A stretch of DNA of 64,000 bases from Thermosulfuriphilus ammonigenes (GTDB taxonomy: Bacteria; Desulfobacterota; Thermodesulfobacteria; Thermodesulfobacteriales; ST65), in the NCBI RefSeq assembly GCF_011207455.1, contig NZ_CP048877.1, positions 364,576-428,575 of the forward strand, given 5' to 3'. The notes beneath the pieces were generated by a model. The model did not search any database. It was not told the DNA's origin and saw only the letters and a program-made list of their open reading frames with translations. Below, piece by piece: positions 46,998-57,086 of this stretch (positions are counted from its first letter, which is position 1; every line of letters starts with the position of its first letter). A program made the position numbers and the translations under genes.

Positions 46998-48110
46998 TCA
47001 GAGCCTTTCCAGCTGATATTGACGACTTCCAAGACCGATTTCCTCGGCATGATCCAGTTGAATCTCCCAATCCACTTTGGGGTAAAGCCCGCGCAGTTTG
47101 TCCTCTCCTGGGGAGACATTCCTGGTGAGGGCCGAGCCCGGGAGGGCCATCTCCTGATTGATGAGATCAACTGATGCCTGATCAATGGCTACCGGGTCTC
47201 GCGAGGCCAAAATACCTATATCCCGAACAAAGGGATAGTCGTTAAAGTGGTAGCAGTCACAGGCCGGGGAGACGTTCATGATAAAATTAAGAAAAAGGGC
47301 CCGGTCAGCCTTGCCCCAGAGGGCTCCCTTGGCATATTCTGCCAGCTTCTTAAGAAAGACAGGCCCCACCTCGTTCCACTGAACCTGGATGGCCCCGGAA
47401 GGACAAATGGCGATACACTCACCACAGCCAATGCATTTTTGAGGCTCGATCACCATCCTCTTGCCTGTTGGGCCGGGGGCAATGGCCCCGGAAGGACAGT
47501 ATTCCAGACAGGTCTTGCAGAACACACACTTTTTTTTGTTGACTTTGGGGGCAATGGTAGAATGCTGGGCCAGCTTTCCCTTGCGGGCCGCACATCCCAT
47601 TCCCAGGTTTTTGATAGCTCCCCCAAAACCTGAAAGCTCATGGCCTTTGACATGACTCATGACCACCAAGGCATCGGCCCGGTAAATGGCCTGAGCAATG
47701 AAGAGCTCCTTGAGCAGAGGAAAATCCACCTCCAGGCGGACAAAGTTGTCCCCCAGAAGGCCATCGGCAATGATTATCGGGGCCCGAACCACGGCAAAAT
47801 CAAAGCCGTTTTCTATAGCCGTCTCCAGATGAACGACGGCATCAGAACGGCTTCCTTTGTAAAGAGTATTGGTGTCGGTAAGAAAGGGGCTGGCTCCCAA
47901 TTCCTTAAGAAGATCTACCACCCGCCGGACATATTGCGGACGAATAAAGGCCAAGTTGCCTCGCTCACCGAAGTGAATCTTTATTCCTACCTGGCGGGAG
48001 GGCCTTATGACCTCCCTTATCCCCAGCTTCTCCAGAAGGAGGGCGGTTTTATCCAAAAGATTCAGACGTGGGTTGGCCCTCAGATCAACAAAGTAAACCT
48101 TACTGGCCAT
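46998..48110 (-). CDS. DUF362 protein with two [4Fe-4S] ferredoxin sites
   Basis: A 370-residue cytoplasmic iron-sulfur protein. The DUF362 domain (about 1-190 and 255-340) carries KIHFGERGN, FLTDTNTLY, VVMSHVKGHELSGFGGAIKNLGM and ASRDPVAIDQASVDLI. Inserted at about 190-245 are two cluster motifs, CVFCKTCLEYCPSGAI and CIGCGECIAICPSGAI, so it can carry two [4Fe-4S] clusters. The family is common in anaerobes; its reaction is unknown. It follows the GAF kinase-like gene by 9 nt and ends 90 nt before fur, leaving about 90 nt that hold the fur control region. Confidence 0.9.
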   Translation of the reverse strand: MASKVYFVDLRANPRLNLLDKTALLLEKLGIREVIRPSRQVGIKIHFGERGNLAFIRPQYVRRVVDLLKELGASPFLTDTNTLYKGSRSDAVVHLETAIENGFDFAVVRAPIIIADGLLGDNFVRLEVDFPLLKELFIAQAIYRADALVVMSHVKGHELSGFGGAIKNLGMGCAARKGKLAQHSTIAPKVNKKKCVFCKTCLEYCPSGAIAPGPTGKRMVIEPQKCIGCGECIAICPSGAIQVQWNEVGPVFLKKLAEYAKGALWGKADRALFLNFIMNVSPACDCYHFNDYPFVRDIGILASRDPVAIDQASVDLINQEMALPGSALTRNVSPGEDKLRGLYPKVDWEIQLDHAEEIGLGSRQYQLERL

Positions 48111-48119
48111 GGCTTCCCC

Positions 48120-49787
48120 CTAGCGAGCGGCTTCTTCTATGTCCACGATTTTAATGTCTCCTACGTAGTCTTTAGCCTGATAGCGGGTAATCTGGGTCAT
48201 CTTTTTGGTCAGAAGGCTCATGCGCTTAAGATTGCGCAGAATTAGTTCTACCTCCTCCCGCATGGAGGCCTCCTGTTCGGGTATCTCGTCCAGGAGAAGC
48301 TCTGCAGCCCCAATGGCCACAAACATAGGGGTGTTCAGTTCATGGGCCACGGCCCGGGCCATCTCCACTACTCCCTGGAGGCGTTCTCGCTCCATGGTCT
48401 CTTTTTCTAAAAGCTTCTGGGCCGTTATATCTCTGACAACCTCAATGAAGAATTCGATTCGGCCTGAAGAATCAAGCACCGGAGAGGTAACCACCTCAAG
48501 ATATTGCTTCCCATCTCCCCGGGAGATCTCAATAACCCTGGTGGCCGGGGCCCTGGTGGCCTCCACCTCTCTGGTGGGGCAGGCTTCTTCATTACAGAAG
48601 GAAATAACTTCATAGCAGGGACGGCCTGAGACCTGGCCATCGGTAAGGTTGTAGTTTTCCAGAAAGACCTTATTGGCCATAACGATCTGCCCCTCAGGAT
48701 CAATAACCACCAGGCCGGCATGGAGGCTATCGATGATATTTTTAAGAAACCTTTCTTGACGTTCGAGGGTCTTCAGAAGGTGATTGATTTTCTCATAGGC
48801 CTGGGCCTTCTTCAGGGCAATACCTCCCTGTTCGGCCACGGCCACAGCGAAATTGACCTCACTCTCCGTAAAACTCCGGGGCTCGGCCGTAAGGAGCCTC
48901 AAAACTCCCAGTATCTCTCCCTCCACCAAAATGGGCACGGCCAGAATACTGGCCACTCCTTCTTTGCGGGCGGCCTCCGGATAGCGAATGCGGGGGTCCC
49001 TGGTGGCATCGTAGATGGCTACTGGCCGGCCAGCCAGTGCCTGGTGAATAGCCCTTTCGTCGTCAATAGAACCTCGAGAAAGATACTCCTCAGAGAGCCC
49101 CGAGGCGGCCACCAGTTCAAGGTGTCCTCCGTGAGGGTCAAGAAGTCGAATGGTGCATCCCTTTAGGCCCATTACCTGAGGGAGCTTGGTCACAATAAGA
49201 TCGAGGATCTCCCGAAAAGAAAGGGTGGAGTTTAAGGCCTTGCCAATCTCATTAAGGGTCTTGAAGTATTTGACCTGACGGAGCTGATGACGATAAAGAC
49301 AGGCGTTTTCGATGATGATCCCGCACTGCTCAGCCAGGACTTTAAGAAAATCCACATCTTCTGAGGAAATCTGCCGGGGTTTGCGGGAGAAAAGACTCAT
49401 CAGCCCGATGGTTTGGCCCCTTGAGATGACCGGCACAGTGAGAAAGGATCTTATCCCCTCCCGGACAAAGATCTCCCGAAAGGCCGGCCGAGATTCCTCA
49501 TCGGAGTCGCTGATAAGGAGCGGATTTCCCTCCAGAACCTCGTCCAGGAGGTGATCATCCAGAGTGGCCCAATCCTTGTCTGGACGGCTCTCAAGGCCAG
49601 AGAAAGCCCGGGGGACAAGGTGGTCTCCCGTCTCATCCAGAAGGCAGACCATGGCCCCGTCAAGGCCCATAGCCTGGGGGACCCTCTCCACCAGGAGTTC
49701 GAGAACCTTGTCCACATCCAGGGTGGCGGAGATGGTCTTGACGATCTCCCGAAAAAGCTGAAAGTAGGTCTCTCTTCTGGCTTCCAT
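48120..49787 (-). CDS. GAF-GAF-PAS-HisKA protein lacking a kinase ATPase domain
   Basis: A 555-residue cytoplasmic signalling protein. GAF domains occupy about 18-160 and 180-325 (VPVISRGQTIGLMSLFSRKP and VPILVEGEILGVLRLLTAEP are their typical cores). A PAS domain follows at about 345-455 (DSLHAGLVVIDPEGQIVMAN). It ends with a HisKA dimerisation helix pair carrying H482 in AVAHELNTP. The protein stops 70 residues later with no N, G1 or G2 box. No ATPase fragment is found in the next gene, so this is either a natural phosphotransfer scaffold or a truncated kinase. I prefer the ATG at 49787 over a TTG at 49796. Confidence 0.85.
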   Translation of the reverse strand: MEARRETYFQLFREIVKTISATLDVDKVLELLVERVPQAMGLDGAMVCLLDETGDHLVPRAFSGLESRPDKDWATLDDHLLDEVLEGNPLLISDSDEESRPAFREIFVREGIRSFLTVPVISRGQTIGLMSLFSRKPRQISSEDVDFLKVLAEQCGIIIENACLYRHQLRQVKYFKTLNEIGKALNSTLSFREILDLIVTKLPQVMGLKGCTIRLLDPHGGHLELVAASGLSEEYLSRGSIDDERAIHQALAGRPVAIYDATRDPRIRYPEAARKEGVASILAVPILVEGEILGVLRLLTAEPRSFTESEVNFAVAVAEQGGIALKKAQAYEKINHLLKTLERQERFLKNIIDSLHAGLVVIDPEGQIVMANKVFLENYNLTDGQVSGRPCYEVISFCNEEACPTREVEATRAPATRVIEISRGDGKQYLEVVTSPVLDSSGRIEFFIEVVRDITAQKLLEKETMERERLQGVVEMARAVAHELNTPMFVAIGAAELLLDEIPEQEASMREEVELILRNLKRMSLLTKKMTQITRYQAKDYVGDIKIVDIEEAAR

Positions 49788-49808
49788 GAATATCAACCAC
49801 CCAAGATA

Positions 49809-49837
49809 GAAGGAGGGGCCTTACTGGCCCCTCCTTC
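49809..49837 (-). terminator. Hairpin terminator after the torD-oxidoreductase gene
   Basis: A 12-bp GC-rich stem (GAAGGAGGGGCC and its complement) with a 5-nt loop stands 27 nt after the stop on the minus strand. The T-tract behind it is imperfect (TTCTATCTT). It separates the oxidoreductase operon from the GAF protein. Confidence 0.7.
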
Positions 49838-49863
49838 TTAAGGAATCTTTGCTAAGAAGTCCC

Positions 49864-52716
49864 CTAAGAGCCTTCTTTTTTTATCACCTGAACTTTGTTG
49901 AATTTCAAGGGCGGTGTACCACTATAAAGACAACTGCAGGCCGGCTTCATAACCTTGGTCGTTCCCGTTCCCCAGAAGCGGGGATATTTTGGATCAGCCT
50001 CAAGCCCCCGCCAGTGTCCGAATCCGCCAGCAGCGGCCACCACCCCCTGGCGAATATTCCAGGTAACGCGAACTCGAGTCTCAAACTGCCCCCAGGGGCT
50101 CTTAACCACCACCTGATCGCCATCTTTTAGGCCCCTTAGTTTGGCGTCAATAACGTTGATCCACAGGGGATTGCTCCCCCGCTGTTTCATAAGCTGGATA
50201 TTGTTCATGGTTCCGCAATGCTCATGCTCCAGAACCCGGAAGTAACCGAGAATGAGGGGGTATTCCTCGTCGGGTTTAAGATCCGGCCAGTCTTCCCAGG
50301 GCTCTTTGTAGTCTGGCAGAGGGTCTATGCCCTTTTTCTCGGCTACCGGATGCTTGAAGTTATACTTTCCCGTGGGGGTCTTGCCCGAAGAGCCGTAGCC
50401 CTCTGGGGGATTAAGGCTCCCCCACTTTTTGTACTTAAAGTATTCGTGAGGGTCAGTGATGTAGTAGCCCCTCTTTTTGAGCTCCTCAAGGGTGACCGGA
50501 AGCCCCCTTAATTGATTACGAATAAACTCTTCTTCATCTTTCCAGGGGAAGTATTCACCCAGGCCAAGCCGCCTGGCAAGCTCGGTAAAAATCCACCAGA
50601 TAGGACGAGAATCATAGAGAGGGTCAATCACCCGCTGAAAGAGGCTGATAAAGGCCTCGTAAGTCCAGTCAGGCACCACCCGACTCTGCTCAAGATAGGT
50701 ACAATCAGGCAAAACCACATCCGAGAGGCTAGCCGTATTGCTCATAAAGATGTCAATAGCTACCCGGAAGTCCATCTTTTTGATGGCCCGAACGATGGAA
50801 TCTTCGTTGCCGCAGGAAAGGACGGGATCACCAAAATAGCAGACCAGAGCCTTTATCTTCCCCTGATCCACTTGCTCTTCCAGGTAGGCCGGCCACCAGC
50901 CACTCCATATCCGGCCCTCATTAAGCTTCACCTTGGGGGCATTATTAGGAGGCTTGGGCTGTCCTTCACCCCAGGGGCTTGAGAGCTTGCGTTTGAAGGG
51001 AAGGCTGGGCCCCCCGGGGGCATCAAAGGTGCCCTTTAGGCCGTTTAGGGCCATAATGGCCATGGTAGCGTAGAAGGCGTTAGGGCTCTGAGAGACGCCG
51101 GTCCAGCACAGGGCGGCCGGATGATCGGCATAGCCGAACTCAAGGCCCAGGCGCTCAATGGTTAAGGCCGGAACGCCACAGATCTTCTCCGCCCACTCCG
51201 GACTCCGGGGCTGACCATCCTCCTCGCCTAAAAGGCGGCGCTTAAAGTCCTCAAAGCCATAAGTCCAGTTCTCTACAAACTCCCGATCATAAAGTTCATT
51301 TTTGACAATCACATAGCACATGGCCAGGGCCAAGGCCCCGTCAGTAGCCGGCTTTATGGGGATCCACTCGGTAGCTGCGGCCGCCGTCTCGCTGCGACGG
51401 GGGTCAACGGCCACCAGCTTACAGCCTCTTTTAAGGGCCTCTTTAAGAAGCCCCAGTTTGCGCTGCCCTCCAGAGGTGGCAAATTCGTTGATACCAAAAA
51501 GGATGACAAAGTCGCTCTGTCGGTAGTCAATCCAGGGGCGTTTGTCGTTCAGGTTATATTCATTGGCCATCCGGATGGGGTTATCGCACATTACCCGATG
51601 GGTGACCTTGTGGGGGCAACCATAGGCGGCCATGACCGCCTCATGGAGCCAGGCATTGTAATCATTGCCCCGGTGGTAGCCCACCGTAGCTGGATCAAGC
51701 TCTTTTAGCCTCCGGGCAACATAATCTAGGGCCTCATCCCAGCTGGCCTTGCGGAAACGGCCCTCTTCCTTGATAAGGGGTGTCTTAAGACGGTAGGCAC
51801 TGTAGGCCTGAAGATGGGCGTTTCCTCCCTTAATACAGAGACGACCGCCACCTTTAGGATCACCGGCCAGACCTGTGATTCCCTGGATGATACCATCTTT
51901 AACCCGTACCGTCTGGCCACAGAGCCCCAGACATATGTAGCAATGGGTAGGGTAGGTCTTTAGCCCCTCTTCCGGAAGGGCCCCCGGACTGAGGGTTGAG
52001 TAACCAGAAAGCCCCAATTCCTTGAGAATGGGGACCATTAGATTCAAGGTCTCCAGGTAAGGCTGATTGGGACTGGTCCCGGATTCGACATTAAAAAGAT
52101 ACATCCGCTCCTGGAACAGAAAGGACATCAAAAGCTCGGCCAGCCCCTGGTAATAGGGACTCTGAGCGGCTCCAGAAAGAACAGCCACAAACTCCACCAC
52201 CCAGTTAAGGAGATGCTGACGCAGAAACTCAATATGGCCTTTAAAGGCCGCCTCGTCTCCCTGGCCGGCCTTGTCCAGAAGATAGGCCAGAAAATCCAAC
52301 TCTACGGCAATGTGGTCATCCAGCTCGTAGTAGGCCGGATCCTTCTTGACATCAAAGGCTCGATAGGCCTGTCTTACCTGAGCCACGGCCCCCCGGATAA
52401 CCACCGGTTCTCGGTTTAGATAGACTGACTCATAGGGGAAGACCGGATTGGGGCCTGCATTGAGGAAAAGATCGGCGTATTCGAACCTGAGTTTTTTGTA
52501 GACCTCCTCCGGCCCCTCTTTTTGAAGGTAGTCTGCCACCTTGGCCAGCCCGACAGTCAGATCCACCAAGGGGGCCTGGGACTTTAGGCCCTCGACCCCC
52601 TTGGTAAAACCTGGTTCGGCCAGACGAAGGAGAAAATCCTTTGCCGGTTCATCATGAAGGGCCCTGGCCAGAAAGCGATAGACCTCCGCCCGTTTGCTGG
52701 ATAGTTCTGCGTCCAT
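49864..52716 (-). CDS. TorD-type chaperone fused to molybdopterin bis-PGD oxidoreductase
   Basis: A 950-residue single polypeptide. Residues 1 to about 225 are a TorD/DmsD chaperone: all-helical, with FLNAGPNPVFPYESVYL near 84-100 and ELDDHIAVELDFLAYLL near 131. Residues from about 250 are a catalytic subunit of the DMSO-reductase superfamily. C259, C262, C266 and C294 (CYICLGLC...LCIKG) bind [4Fe-4S]. C377 in THRVMCDNP sits where Psr/Phs/Nap enzymes place the Mo/W-ligating Cys. FGINEFATSGG, DPRRSE and the C-terminal GTMNNIQLM segment complete the pterin sites. There is no Tat signal, so it is predicted cytoplasmic. The ATG at 52716 has AAGGAGG upstream. It follows rex by 28 nt; no FeS or membrane subunit is adjacent. 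Confidence 0.9.
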   Translation of the reverse strand: MDAELSSKRAEVYRFLARALHDEPAKDFLLRLAEPGFTKGVEGLKSQAPLVDLTVGLAKVADYLQKEGPEEVYKKLRFEYADLFLNAGPNPVFPYESVYLNREPVVIRGAVAQVRQAYRAFDVKKDPAYYELDDHIAVELDFLAYLLDKAGQGDEAAFKGHIEFLRQHLLNWVVEFVAVLSGAAQSPYYQGLAELLMSFLFQERMYLFNVESGTSPNQPYLETLNLMVPILKELGLSGYSTLSPGALPEEGLKTYPTHCYICLGLCGQTVRVKDGIIQGITGLAGDPKGGGRLCIKGGNAHLQAYSAYRLKTPLIKEEGRFRKASWDEALDYVARRLKELDPATVGYHRGNDYNAWLHEAVMAAYGCPHKVTHRVMCDNPIRMANEYNLNDKRPWIDYRQSDFVILFGINEFATSGGQRKLGLLKEALKRGCKLVAVDPRRSETAAAATEWIPIKPATDGALALAMCYVIVKNELYDREFVENWTYGFEDFKRRLLGEEDGQPRSPEWAEKICGVPALTIERLGLEFGYADHPAALCWTGVSQSPNAFYATMAIMALNGLKGTFDAPGGPSLPFKRKLSSPWGEGQPKPPNNAPKVKLNEGRIWSGWWPAYLEEQVDQGKIKALVCYFGDPVLSCGNEDSIVRAIKKMDFRVAIDIFMSNTASLSDVVLPDCTYLEQSRVVPDWTYEAFISLFQRVIDPLYDSRPIWWIFTELARRLGLGEYFPWKDEEEFIRNQLRGLPVTLEELKKRGYYITDPHEYFKYKKWGSLNPPEGYGSSGKTPTGKYNFKHPVAEKKGIDPLPDYKEPWEDWPDLKPDEEYPLILGYFRVLEHEHCGTMNNIQLMKQRGSNPLWINVIDAKLRGLKDGDQVVVKSPWGQFETRVRVTWNIRQGVVAAAGGFGHWRGLEADPKYPRFWGTGTTKVMKPACSCLYSGTPPLKFNKVQVIKKEGS

Positions 52717-52744: not shown

Positions 52745-53434
52745 TCAGAGAACAGCGGCCACAATCTGTTTGACCTTGTTATACTGCCTTCGACCAGTTT
52801 TTCTTCTTCCTTTTTCTGACATGGAATAGGTTAAGGTGTCTAGCAAAATCGTAAAGTCAACATTCTGAACAATCACGTGTGGCAGGCAGTTGAGCCTCAC
52901 CGGAGAAAAGTTGAGTATTCCCCGAACACCAGCCTCAGCCAGATCCCCCACTGCCTGTTCGGCGAGTTCTCTTTCGGTACAGATAACTCCGATCTCTATC
53001 TCCCCTTCGTGCACTCTTTGGGGCAGGGATTCTATGGCCTCGACCTGAAGCCCCTCTTTTACCACCTGCCCCACCTTCTGCGAATCATAATCAAAGACCG
53101 CGGTCAGCTCATATTCCTCCCGGGGCTCGATAAAATAACGCATCACCGTCTCTCCCAGGGGGTTAAAACCCACCAAAGCAATGCGTCTTTTTTGATTGAG
53201 CCCGAGGATGTTTTTAATCTCCTCCAGAAGCTGGGGCACGTTATAACCCACCCCCCGGACACCGAAGCGACCGAAGAAGGAAAGATCCTTTCGCAGCTGG
53301 GCCGGATTGACCCCACAATAATGGGCCATGGCCTGGGAGGAGATGACCCGACGTCCCTTACGTAAAAGCTCCTCCAGACAGCGCCGATAGAGAAAAAGCC
53401 TGATAATTGTGCTCTGACTGTCCCTAAACTCCAT
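52745..53434 (-). CDS. rex: Redox-sensing transcriptional repressor Rex
   Basis: A 229-residue NADH-responsive repressor. The winged-helix half has TIIRLFLYRRCLEEL, ISSQAMAHYCGVNPAQLRKDLSFFGRFGVRGVGYNV, nearly the family consensus. The Rossmann half has VGFNPLGETVMRYF, where family members normally read GxGxxG; here the second Gly is Asn91. TAVFDYDSQKVG and the VGQVVKEGLQVEA region follow. I use the ATG at 53434, which begins the conserved segment; a 247-residue alternative adds 18 residues. It precedes the oxidoreductase and so probably represses its own operon when NADH is low or high according to family rules. Confidence 0.92.
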   Translation of the reverse strand: MEFRDSQSTIIRLFLYRRCLEELLRKGRRVISSQAMAHYCGVNPAQLRKDLSFFGRFGVRGVGYNVPQLLEEIKNILGLNQKRRIALVGFNPLGETVMRYFIEPREEYELTAVFDYDSQKVGQVVKEGLQVEAIESLPQRVHEGEIEIGVICTERELAEQAVGDLAEAGVRGILNFSPVRLNCLPHVIVQNVDFTILLDTLTYSMSEKGRRKTGRRQYNKVKQIVAAVL

Positions 53435-53471
53435 TTTGAAGCACCCCCTTGATTTTTTTGCCAGATATTCC

Positions 53472-53487
53472 TTCAAGATGGATGCCA
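53472..53487 (-). promoter_or_regulatory. Candidate sigma-54 (-24/-12) promoter of rex operon
   Basis: The minus strand reads TGGCATC, four bases, then TTGAA. Against the consensus TGGCACR-N4-TTGCW the -24 GG is intact and spacing correct, but the -12 GC is GA. It lies about 38 nt before the rex ATG. Two palindromes lie 75-125 bp upstream, a classic enhancer position. Confidence 0.4.
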
Positions 53488-53544
53488 AGGGCCGAAAAAC
53501 GGAAGTTGGAGAATTTTGGAGCTAACAGGGGTGAGAGGCTGTCT

Positions 53545-53562
53545 TAGAGAAAATTTTCACTG
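53545..53562. promoter_or_regulatory. Rex-box-like operator upstream of rex
   Basis: TAGAGAA, four bases (AATT), then TTCACTG matches the Rex operator TTGTGAA-N4-TTCACAA at 10 of 14 positions. It abuts the first enhancer-like palindrome. Autoregulation by Rex is common, which makes the site plausible but not proven. Confidence 0.35.
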
Positions 53563-53598
53563 CCACACTTAGGTGGCAGGTGCCACATTTATGTGGCA
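53561..53598. repeat. Two tandem 18-bp palindromes, likely activator binding sites
   Basis: TGCCACACTTAGGTGGCA (53561-53578) and TGCCACATTTATGTGGCA (53581-53598) are near-identical dyads spaced 20 bp start to start, about two helical turns. The second is a perfect TGCCACA-N4-TGTGGCA and contains the stop codon of the sigma-54 regulator gene. They lie 127-164 bp before the rex ATG. This geometry suits tandem dimers of a Fis-type sigma-54 activator. No other copy was noticed in the window. Confidence 0.7.
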
Positions 53599-54989
53599 CC
53601 CTGACGCATAAGCCTCTGGAAGACCTGCCGCCTTAAACCGGCCAGCCGGGCCGCCTTAGAAACATTGCCACCGGCAAGTTCTAAGGCCTGGCGAACATAG
53701 TCGCGAACAAATCTCTCCATTACCCGGGCCTTGGCCTCATGGTAAGGGAGAAGGCCTCCGGCCTGATCTTCCAGGGGGGGCTCACTTTCGGGATCCAGAT
53801 CAGCAGGAGTGATGACGTTCGCCTGGGTGAGGAGAACGGCTCGCCGGATAACGTTCTGGAGTTCCCGGACATTGCCTGGCCAAGGACGGCTTAAAAGGTA
53901 CTTAAGGGCCTCAGGGCTGAACTCCAGCTCCTCGCGGCCATACTCTCGACCAAAGATCTCCAGAAAGTGGCGGGCCAAAAGGGGAATGTCTTCGGATATC
54001 TCGGCCAAGGAGGGCATCTGGATGGTAACCACGTTGAGGCGATAAAAGAGATCCTCCCGAAAAAGTCCCTGTTTGATTTTGGCCTCTAGATCCTGGTTAG
54101 TGGAGGCCAGAACCCGGACATCCACTTTGATGGGCTTGGTGGCTCCCAAGGGATGAATCTCCTTTTCTTGAAGAACCCGAAGAAGCTTGGTCTGAAGGGT
54201 GGGAGAGATGTCGCCGATCTCATCCAGAAGAATGGTAGAACCATGGGCCATTTCAAAAAGCCCTTTCTTATCCCGCGTGGCCCCGGTAAAGGCCCCTTTA
54301 CGGTAACCAAAGAGCTCGCTTTCCAAAATATGTTCGGGCACTGCCGGACAGTTAACGACAATGAGATCCCGTTCGGCCCGGGGGCTGAGGCGATGAATGG
54401 CTCGGGCGGCCAACTCCTTGCCGGTTCCAGATTCGCCACGGATAAGCACCGTTACATCAGTGGGAGCAATCTTCTCGATAAGGGAGATTACTCGGCGAAG
54501 GCGGGGAGAACGACCGATAAAGTCTCCCTGGGAAAAGGAGCGGAGACAACTTTTTAGGTGGACGTTTTCCCGGAGAAGATGGGTTCGTTCCAGGGCCTTT
54601 TCAACGGCGTGAATCACCCGATCATTGTCAAAGGGTTTGGGGATAAAGTCATAGGCCCCCTGTTTAAGGGCCTCAACGGCCATCTCTATCGTGCCGTATC
54701 CGGTAATGAGGATAATGGTCGAAAGGGGGCTGCTCTTTTTGGTAGCCTCCAGAATGGCAAACCCGTCTATGTCCGGCAGACGGACATCGGTGACCACCAC
54801 CTCCGGGGCCTCTCGCTTGATAAAGCCAATGGCCGAACGGCCGTCGGTAAAGGCCTTTGTTCGGCAAGAAACCCCCCTTTTGATGACCCGTTCCAGAAGG
54901 CGGGCAAAATCTTGATCGTCGTCAATGATTACCACCAGGGGCTGATCGGCCCCCTCTTTCTTAAAAGCCCTTTTCTTGTTGGAATTCAT
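53589..54989 (-). CDS. Sigma-54-dependent response regulator (NtrC family)
   Basis: A 466-residue transcriptional activator. The receiver domain has the acidic pocket in VIIDDDQD, phospho-accepting D68 in VVVTDVRLPD, and K118 in IPKPF. The AAA+ domain has Walker A GESGTGKE (185-192), the sigma-54-contacting GAFTGA (232-237), Walker B ILLDEIGD, and the Arg-finger region. A Fis-type helix-turn-helix closes it (GGNVSKAARLAGLRRQVFQRLM). It would activate -24/-12 promoters on phosphorylation. It is divergent from a membrane protein and histidine kinase (55.2-57.1 kb), its probable partner, and stands directly upstream of two tandem palindromes and rex. Confidence 0.95.
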   Translation of the reverse strand: MNSNKKRAFKKEGADQPLVVIIDDDQDFARLLERVIKRGVSCRTKAFTDGRSAIGFIKREAPEVVVTDVRLPDIDGFAILEATKKSSPLSTIILITGYGTIEMAVEALKQGAYDFIPKPFDNDRVIHAVEKALERTHLLRENVHLKSCLRSFSQGDFIGRSPRLRRVISLIEKIAPTDVTVLIRGESGTGKELAARAIHRLSPRAERDLIVVNCPAVPEHILESELFGYRKGAFTGATRDKKGLFEMAHGSTILLDEIGDISPTLQTKLLRVLQEKEIHPLGATKPIKVDVRVLASTNQDLEAKIKQGLFREDLFYRLNVVTIQMPSLAEISEDIPLLARHFLEIFGREYGREELEFSPEALKYLLSRPWPGNVRELQNVIRRAVLLTQANVITPADLDPESEPPLEDQAGGLLPYHEAKARVMERFVRDYVRQALELAGGNVSKAARLAGLRRQVFQRLMRQGAT

Positions 54990-55118: not shown

Positions 55119-55147
55119 TTGACGAAAATAAATCTTCCCCCTAAAAT
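55119..55147 (+). promoter_or_regulatory. Strong sigma-70-type promoter, probably leaderless
   Basis: TTGACG, 17 bp, then TAAAAT: each hexamer matches consensus at 5 of 6 positions with ideal spacing. Transcription should begin about 7 nt after the -10, near 55154. The ATG at 55155 is therefore at or near the 5' end of the RNA, and no Shine-Dalgarno sequence precedes it. Confidence 0.65.
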
Positions 55148-55154
55148 GGCACCC

Positions 55155-55583
55155 ATGTTGAGACTGGCCTTAGTTGTTCTTCTCCTTTGGGCCCGGCCAG
55201 CCTGGGCTGTCCAGGTGCATCCGGCCCCAGAAGGCCTTATTGCCCACATGCTGGGGCATGTTCTCTTTACAGCAGCCATTGTCTATTTTCTTTACCTTCT
55301 CTACCGCCATCCTCCGGGGGACAGACCCGGTTGGAAATATCTTAAGTGGTCGCTGATTTTCTTTCTCCTCTGGAACATAGACGCCTTCACCGTCCACGCC
55401 CTGGCCCTTAAAATTCCCAATGAGGCCATCTACGGAGAGAACATCTTCGAGGCTCGACTCCTCCCTCCCTGGAATTGGGTCAAGATTCTTTACTACTTCT
55501 TAAGTTTTGACCACTTTCTCTGTATTCCAGAAATTATCTTCCTCTTTCTGGCCATGAGGAGTTTTTACTTCCGAGGTGCTTAA
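55155..55583 (+). CDS. Small membrane protein, probable partner of histidine kinase
   Basis: A 142-residue membrane protein of no family I can name. An N-terminal signal or first membrane helix (MLRLALVVLLLWARPAWA) ends in AWA before VQVHPAPEG. Further hydrophobic segments are HVLFTAAIVYFLYLLY, WSLIFFLLWNIDAF and LCIPEIIFLFLAM. Several His and Trp residues flank the membrane segments. It lies 3 nt before a membrane histidine kinase, so it is likely a sensing or stabilising partner. The start is inferred from the promoter position; an in-frame ATG at 55146 lies inside the predicted -10. Confidence 0.65.
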   Translation: MLRLALVVLLLWARPAWAVQVHPAPEGLIAHMLGHVLFTAAIVYFLYLLYRHPPGDRPGWKYLKWSLIFFLLWNIDAFTVHALALKIPNEAIYGENIFEARLLPPWNWVKILYYFLSFDHFLCIPEIIFLFLAMRSFYFRGA

Positions 55584-55586
55584 TAG

Positions 55587-57086
55587 ATGACATCTGGCCT
55601 GCCGCTCTTTCCCCTGTATCTGGTTGACTTTATTGGGGCCCTGATAATGATGTTTTTTGCCTTCTGGACTTCCGTCTACAGCTGGCGCCTGGTAAGGAAG
55701 GATCCTACGGATATCCTCTGGCGTTATCTCTTCTGGCTCTCCATGGCCCTGGTGGGTCTGTCTATCTCGCGGGCCGCAGGTCACGCCGCCCGTTTTATTC
55801 TTCTTTCTATGGAGCTTCACGGAATCTGGCTAAAGATAGCCCCTTATACCGGGGCCCTTAACACCATCTTCTTCATCGCTGTGGCCGTATCCACCTTTTA
55901 CTACCAAAACATCCGTCAAGCCGTGGAAAGGCTCCGGCGATTTAACATGGAGCTGGAAAGAAGAATCGAAGAACGCACCCAGGAACTCCTCCTCTCAGAG
56001 CAAAAGTTCCACCGACTTTTTGAGAACAGCAAAGACATGATTTACTTCTGCAACGAATACGGCCACATAACCGACATCAATCCGGCCGGGGCAGCCATGT
56101 TAGGCTACGAGGAAGAAGAACTGGTAAACACCCCCCTTTGGCGGGTTATCGCCAAGGCTGAAGATTGGGAGATCTACTACACCCAGCTATGCCAGCTAGG
56201 ACACATCACCGACTTTGAGACCCAGCTTTTAAGAAAGGATGGTTCCATCTGCCACGTGCTGATCTCCGCCAGTGCCATAAAGGATAAAAAAGGAAACCTG
56301 GTAGGGTGCGAGGGTATCGCCAAGGACATGACCAGATTCCGGGAAATGACCCAGCAGCTCATCCAGTCAGAGAAGCTGGCCTCCATCGGTCAGCTGGCAG
56401 CCGGAGTGGCCCATGAAATAAATACGCCTTTAGGGATTATCCTGGGTTACACCCAGATCTTGGAGGAAGATCTGGAAGAAAATCCAGAGGCCCGCGAGTA
56501 TCTTGGAATCATCGAACGCCAGACCAAAATCTGTCGGCGCATCGTGGGCGACCTTCTCCGCTTTGCTCGCATGGGGAAAAGTGGTGAAGGGGAGGTTGAT
56601 ATCAACCTCTGCGTGCAGGAGGTGGCCTCCATCCTCTCTCACAGCCTGAGCATTGAGCAAATCTCTCTTGAGCTCAAATTGGCCCCCGACCTTCCCCGGA
56701 TAAGGGGAGACCAGGAAAAGATCCGGCAGGTATTAGTCAATCTGGTAACCAACGCCTTCCAGGCCATTGGTCACAACGGTCGCATCGAGATTGAGACTAC
56801 CTACCACCCCCAGGAAGAAGAGATTCTCATTACTGTGGCCGATACCGGGCCAGGAATCCCGCCAGAGATAATAGACAAGATTTTTGACCCTTTCTTCACC
56901 ACTAAGGAGGTGGGACAGGGTACCGGGCTGGGGCTCTCGGTGAGCTTCGGAATTATCAAGGATCACGGGGGAAAAATCAAAGTGGAAAGCCCTCCGGCGG
57001 ACAAGGAGCTCAAAAAGAGAGGGATCCGGACTGTTTTTTACATTCGCCTGCCTGTCCACCGGAGGGGGGAGACTAACCCACCCTGA
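55587..57086 (+). CDS. Membrane PAS histidine kinase
   Basis: A 499-residue sensor kinase. Three hydrophobic segments (about 10-32, 45-62 and 88-105) form an uncharacterised membrane sensor with a [10 protein letters not shown] loop. A coiled coil ([12 protein letters not shown]) leads to a PAS domain (about 140-250). HisKA has the phospho-accepting H276 in [10 protein letters not shown]. The ATPase has [19 protein letters not shown] and [13 protein letters not shown]. It is co-transcribed with the small membrane protein. The sigma-54 response regulator on the other strand is its most likely partner. Its 3' end overlaps the convergent CheY-like gene by 14 nt. Confidence 0.92.

Follow-up and report, generated by a model that had tools for sequence, protein, structure and literature searches.

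The window analysed here, a stretch of 64,000 nucleotides from Thermosulfuriphilus ammonigenes, raises the question of whether a TorD-type chaperone and a molybdopterin oxidoreductase (MopB) are truly encoded as one protein and, if so, where in the cell and on which kind of substrate that protein acts.

A chaperone and a catalytic subunit in one gene

The first-pass annotation of this DNA had read a single uninterrupted frame through both domains, and the same frame was recovered here: it runs on the minus strand from 52716 to 49864, from ATG to TAG, and encodes 950 aa (Table 1). An alternative in-frame TTG at 52764, upstream of the ATG, is a less likely start, as it would make the gene overlap the end of Rex. 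Overall G+C and third-position G+C are alike in the two parts (0.54/0.62 and 0.55/0.62). Since the frame is open and full-length orthologs exist, a frameshift, a stop or a chimera between the domains is ruled out, and because these orthologs occur in unrelated assemblies, chance or an assembly error is excluded as well. The joining of TorD and MopB is thus genuine, neither a frameshift nor a one-off.

The TorD/NarJ family domain PF02613 was recognized at residues 57-177 (E 6e-26; 91.5 bits against a curated cut-off of 22.2), which places the N-terminal part among the REMPs, and the NCBIfam models for TorD and DmsD also matched it, with scores under their equivalog cut-offs. The AlphaFold model of residues 1-238 (mean pLDDT 83) has the all-helical REMP fold. 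Its first eight PDB matches in Foldseek were YcdY, DmsD, NarJ and TtrD, all with a probability of 1.00, the first three of the eight alone passing E 0.001; REMP chaperones were the only confident structure matches, and nothing else was convincing. This structure search also settled, in favour of a REMP fold, whether the first domain might not be TorD-like, the outcome that the first-pass annotation had named as a refutation. Motifs such as YADLFLNAG..P.FPYES and DDHIAVEL are kept across the fusion copies, and since these canonical TorD motifs are retained, the domain is not decaying. PF02613 and the all-helical fold are therefore common to the fusion and to TorD, DmsD and NarJ; known REMPs, however, are separate proteins, whereas here the REMP domain is covalently joined to its client.

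The C-terminal part contains PF04879, PF00384 and PF01568 in this order, all above their curated cut-offs, and so belongs to the MopB superfamily. The annotation had read a TorD/DmsD-like domain at about residues 1-225 followed by a complete FeS/Mo-bisPGD subunit, and both are present, at residues 1-235 and 253-946.

Table 1. Coordinates of the fusion gene, its parts and its surroundings in the window.
Feature	Position	Strand	Basis
TorD-MopB fusion gene, 950 aa	49864..52716	-	ORF, translation, Pfam, conserved full-length family
TorD/DmsD-like chaperone domain, residues 1-235	52012..52716	-	PF02613, NCBIfam TorD and DmsD, AlphaFold/Foldseek
Short linker, residues 236-252, without Tat motif	51961..52011	-	Alignment and motif scan
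[4Fe-4S] domain, residues 253-305, PF04879	51802..51960	-	Pfam, invariant columns
Molybdopterin oxidoreductase domain, residues 309-715, PF00384 (E 1e-37)	50572..51792	-	Pfam; PsrA 2vpw best PDB match
C377 codon, candidate Mo/W ligand, within HRxMCDNxxRMANE	51586..51588	-	Invariant in 12/12 orthologs
Molybdopterin dinucleotide-binding domain, residues 821-905, PF01568 (E 7e-17)	50002..50256	-	Pfam
GAF-GAF-PAS-HisKA protein, 558 aa, no ATPase domain	48120..49796	-	Pfam
DUF362 protein, two 4Fe-4S motifs	46998..48110	-	Pfam; also adjoins the fusion in L043
Rex redox-sensing repressor, directly upstream of the fusion	52745..53488	-	NCBIfam
Candidate operator: two perfect TGCCAC-N6-GTGGCA palindromes in tandem, 20 bp apart	53561..53598		Precede the Rex and fusion genes
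Sigma54-activating response regulator (NtrC type), recurrent neighbour	53589..54989	-	Pfam, neighbourhood cluster
Small protein with several TM segments, sensor part or partner of the kinase that follows	55119..55583	+	Neighbourhood cluster
Sensor histidine kinase, recurrent neighbour	55587..57086	+	Neighbourhood cluster; Pfam of the L041 homolog

Distribution and descent of the fusion

A check suggested by the annotation, a search of public genomes for TorD-MopB fusions with this domain order, found them in Desulfobacterota and Archaeoglobaceae. A scan with short peptide patterns over one genome per GTDB species gave 14 contigs with relatives 53-64% identical, 11 with the full fusion and three with fragments at contig ends; the hosts were Desulfocapsaceae/Desulfobulbaceae, other deltaproteobacterial MAGs and Archaeoglobaceae. 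Full-length orthologs are 50-61% identical over the whole chain, and the domain order is identical in all complete copies. When 395 genomes were searched in six frames, the fusion was detected in nine of the approximately 394 other genomes of the phylum, always at full length. It is also carried by 29 of 93 Desulfocapsaceae genomes, some copies being fragments at contig ends. The distribution is patchy, since no fusion was found at this similarity level in the order-level relatives examined.

About 150 PF02613 matches were listed in 247 genomes of the phylum; only those of the fusion family lie in open frames longer than 900 aa, and among these genomes a TorD-MopB fusion was seen in this one family only. 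The 943-aa open frame of L014 and the long open frames around TorD matches in G095, G137, G092 and G209 are spurious high-G+C extensions and not MopB fusions, and L020 is an unfused TorD-stop-MopB pair. The plasmid collection held no confident full-length fusion; one unannotated record, covered over more than 80%, was 25% identical. Full-text literature searches, whose coverage is incomplete and which thus give absence of evidence only, returned no description of a TorD fusion, nor is a TorD-MopB fusion mentioned in papers that treat the diversity of the NarJ family and the evolutionary history of molybdoenzyme maturation.

Among 60 catalytic domains placed in one tree, the 15 fused sequences lie on one side of a branch (SH-aLRT 100, stem of 1.11 changes per column), which indicates that TorD and MopB were joined just once in the family as sampled. 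The two archaeal sequences are nested inside the bacterial fused ones, and for this reason a transfer of the fusion gene between Bacteria and Archaea is suggested. The sister group is composed of PsrA (2vpw), the MOLY-like/MOLY-type reductase and soluble Phs-like proteins; with a support of only 88 and a long stem, the tree weakly places the fused clade next to the polysulfide/thiosulfate reductases.

Cellular location and maturation

No Tat motif was detected by motif scan in residues 1-300 of the fusion or in any of 12 orthologs, and a canonical FeS B subunit lies beside none of 22 fusion loci. With neither a Tat motif nor an adjacent FeS subunit, the enzyme is very probably cytosolic. The annotation had arrived at the lack of Tat export from the fusion itself, an argument that proved insufficient: fusion alone does not imply the absence of export, because the NarJ-dependent NarG is cytosolic without being fused, and the lack of a Tat signal carries more weight. 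Its remark that no electron-transfer subunit is adjacent stands for the canonical FeS B subunit and fails for the DUF362 protein with its 4Fe-4S motifs, which is encoded two genes downstream on the same strand and is a possible electron partner of the fusion enzyme.

The same genome has seven MopB genes and two TorD-family matches. The second TorD is a separate gene of 183 aa that overlaps a MopB gene, itself followed by an FeS subunit; this split set has the MOLY layout (G000:C1:1467883-1471469), and its MopB carries the Tat signal MKRRGFLKLS, whereas the fusion has no Tat motif. A split, exported design and a fused, unexported one are thus found in one cell. In the MOLY cluster (MolyA, MolyB, MolyC) of sulfur disproportionators, the TorD, the MopB with Tat signal and the FeS subunit are three genes (PMC12998232). 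Like the fusion, MOLY has a TorD-family chaperone dedicated to a MopB subunit in Desulfobacterota, and its hosts are sulfur disproportionators (PMC12998232). In contrast to MOLY, which is recognized by separate molyA, molyB and molyC genes and an exported MolyA, the fusion is one gene with no Tat motif and no FeS subunit, and it is about 27% identical to the MopB of the MOLY-layout set in its own genome.

In E. coli, TorD aids Mo-bisPGD insertion into apoTorA even when the signal peptide is missing, and TorA has a second TorD-binding site, which was not located (PMC10609526). A TorD domain working in cis in this apo-enzyme role, freed of Tat proofreading, would fit the anatomy of the fusion. 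The N-terminal domain would hold the apo-catalytic domain open until both the bis-PGD cofactor, with Cys377 as ligand, and the [4Fe-4S] cluster are in place; no Tat signal would be hidden or proofread, and the holo-enzyme would remain in the cytosol. Maturation in cis by the fused domain is probable on these grounds. The domain could instead have become a permanent structural or docking module that no longer acts as a chaperone, for example one that replaces the FeS subunit interface or binds a regulator. Retention of the fusion through the whole clade and the lack of an FeS subunit encoded nearby would agree with such a role, but a docking domain would need neither the canonical TorD motifs nor the REMP-like fold that are both retained, which makes it unlikely.

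Active site, gene context and substrate

All 12 complete copies share the cluster cysteines C259, C262, C266 and C294 as well as K296 and C377, which bears out all five cysteines named in the first-pass annotation, and each of these copies has the family signature HRxMCDNxxRMANE. Cys377 is the likely metal ligand. The full-length model (pLDDT 75, pTM 0.78) is of moderate confidence and weakest around the active site; its fold matched polysulfide reductase 2vpw first and acetylene hydratase 2e7z second in the PDB. By sequence, too, PsrA/PhsA ranks first in the PDB (E 5e-75), its TM score by fold being 0.74 on the target; it likewise has a Cys ligand, whereas PsrA has R where the fusion has K296. 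PsrA is an exported protein complexed with PsrB and PsrC, and enzymes of the PsrA/PhsA type are recognized by their Tat signal and by genes for FeS and membrane subunits next to their own; a Tat signal is missing from the fusion, and the 22 neighbourhoods contain no FeS B subunit. The PhsA equivalog model NF012032 is the nearest one for the C-terminal part, although the score of 290.7 bits is under its cut-off of 694.

Formate dehydrogenases have a His directly after the Cys/Sec ligand, while an invariant Asp378 follows Cys377 in the fusion. DMSO/TMAO reductases use Ser as Mo ligand, in place of which the fusion has its invariant Cys. In acetylene hydratase the catalytic Asp13 stands next to a cluster cysteine; the corresponding residue of the fusion, residue 263 after the second cluster Cys, is L, N or G. 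These active-site residues argue against formate dehydrogenase, acetylene hydratase and Ser-ligand S/N-oxide reductase types. The likeness to acetylene hydratase nevertheless includes the FeS/bis-PGD fold, the Cys ligand and the absence of partner subunits, and a non-redox enzyme of organic substrates, a hydratase or transhydroxylase, would explain why no B subunit was found. The rank of 2e7z as second-best PDB match by both sequence and fold is in line with this, as are the two CoA-transferase genes that adjoin the fusion in L045. Such an enzyme is quite unlikely, as the catalytic Asp is replaced, acetylene hydratase falls outside the fused clade in the tree of 60 domains, and the gene context is related to sulfur.

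On the minus strand of the window, the order is NtrC-type sigma54 response regulator, Rex, fusion, GAF-GAF-PAS-HisKA protein and DUF362 protein; the sensor kinase and its small membrane partner are encoded upstream, on the plus strand. Clustering of the 22 fusion neighbourhoods showed that the response regulator, the kinase, a receiver and the GAF-HisKA protein recur, the latter in eight of them (552-567 aa). This protein ends before any HATPase domain in the window and in L038, L039, L041, L044, L051, L087 and L088. In Desulfocapsaceae it lies beside a PPDK_N/PEP-utilizer dikinase-like protein and a dual-specificity phosphatase, and the three might form an unusual phospho-signalling set. The longer kinase of L040 (5451-7520, 689 aa) seems to include the small membrane protein of other loci, which is probably the sensory part of the kinase because of this apparent fusion. 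In L093 the kinase/regulator pair has a gene for a PhnD-type periplasmic binding protein (L093:7268-8227) next to it, an arrangement that an anion sensor would be expected to show.

TauE/SafE permeases are encoded within 8 kb of the fusion in nine of the 22 loci. Often they have as partner a membrane protein some 200 aa long (L042, L044, L051, L091, L093, L094), which is EMC3/TMCO1-like in L051. In the genome of the window, a TauE that is 60% identical is encoded about 30 kb from the fusion, accompanied by this partner and by a porin-like gene (G000:C1:447064-449048). What speaks against a functional link is that TauE proteins belong to a common family with mixed functions and that, in this genome, the TauE gene lies apart from the fusion. 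In L050 and L090 the fusion has a small gene resembling sulfite reductase at its side, and dsrA was above cut-off in 10 of 10 fusion genomes compared with 121 of 247 genomes of the phylum, a comparison that ignores relatedness.

Sigma54-like sites with at most two mismatches precede fusion or TauE genes in six of 28 upstream regions, against 0.5 in resampled controls; the window itself has none in front of the fusion. The TGCCAC-N6-GTGGCA palindromes have no other exact copy in the 2.29-Mb genome and were rejected as a shared operator, being absent from the orthologous loci at up to one mismatch. Between the stop codon of the fusion and the next gene lies a 13-bp perfect inverted repeat (49808-49838) in a stretch whose RNA folding is unusually favourable (z -3.7), possibly a terminator or processing hairpin.

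Taken together, these features suggest, with a probability of about 0.5, that the protein is a cytosolic, self-chaperoned Mo/W-bisPGD oxidoreductase from the polysulfide/thiosulfate-reductase side of MopB that acts on a sulfur oxyanion. It is the gene context that indicates this substrate class, for which the odds appear roughly even. The substrate of the holo-enzyme would be a small sulfur oxyanion such as thiosulfate or sulfite, transported by a permease of the TauE/SafE type. As to electron partner and regulation, we infer that electrons would come from a soluble donor such as ferredoxin and that expression would be under the sensor kinase and the sigma54 response regulator, plus Rex in this genome. 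That the two-component system senses, and the enzyme converts, another oxyanion (of arsenic, selenium, chlorine or nitrogen) is very unlikely: PhnD-type binding proteins such as the one beside the L093 kinase do occur in known oxyanion-sensing systems, but no arsenic, selenium or nitrogen genes recur near the fusion and the hosts are sulfur metabolisers with dsrA.

More tentatively, the sulfur-oxyanion enzyme may represent a new inter-domain family of cytosolic molybdo- or tungsto-enzymes with the chaperone in cis, fed by TauE and switched by a sigma54 two-component system, which would carry out an undescribed inorganic sulfur step, for example a cytosolic thiosulfate- or sulfite-converting one, in sulfate reducers and sulfur disproportionators. 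Such a fusion may be wrongly assigned when genomes are screened with markers that presuppose MolyA and MolyC as separate genes. The fusion also bears on how TorD-type chaperones hold their apo-enzyme: chaperone and client occur naturally in one chain, hyperthermophile relatives included, so that crystallography or cryo-EM would have a complex of constant 1:1 stoichiometry, and maturation could be tested cleanly in a setting free of Tat. The enzyme itself could account for a step of sulfur disproportionation or sulfate reduction to which no enzyme has been assigned.
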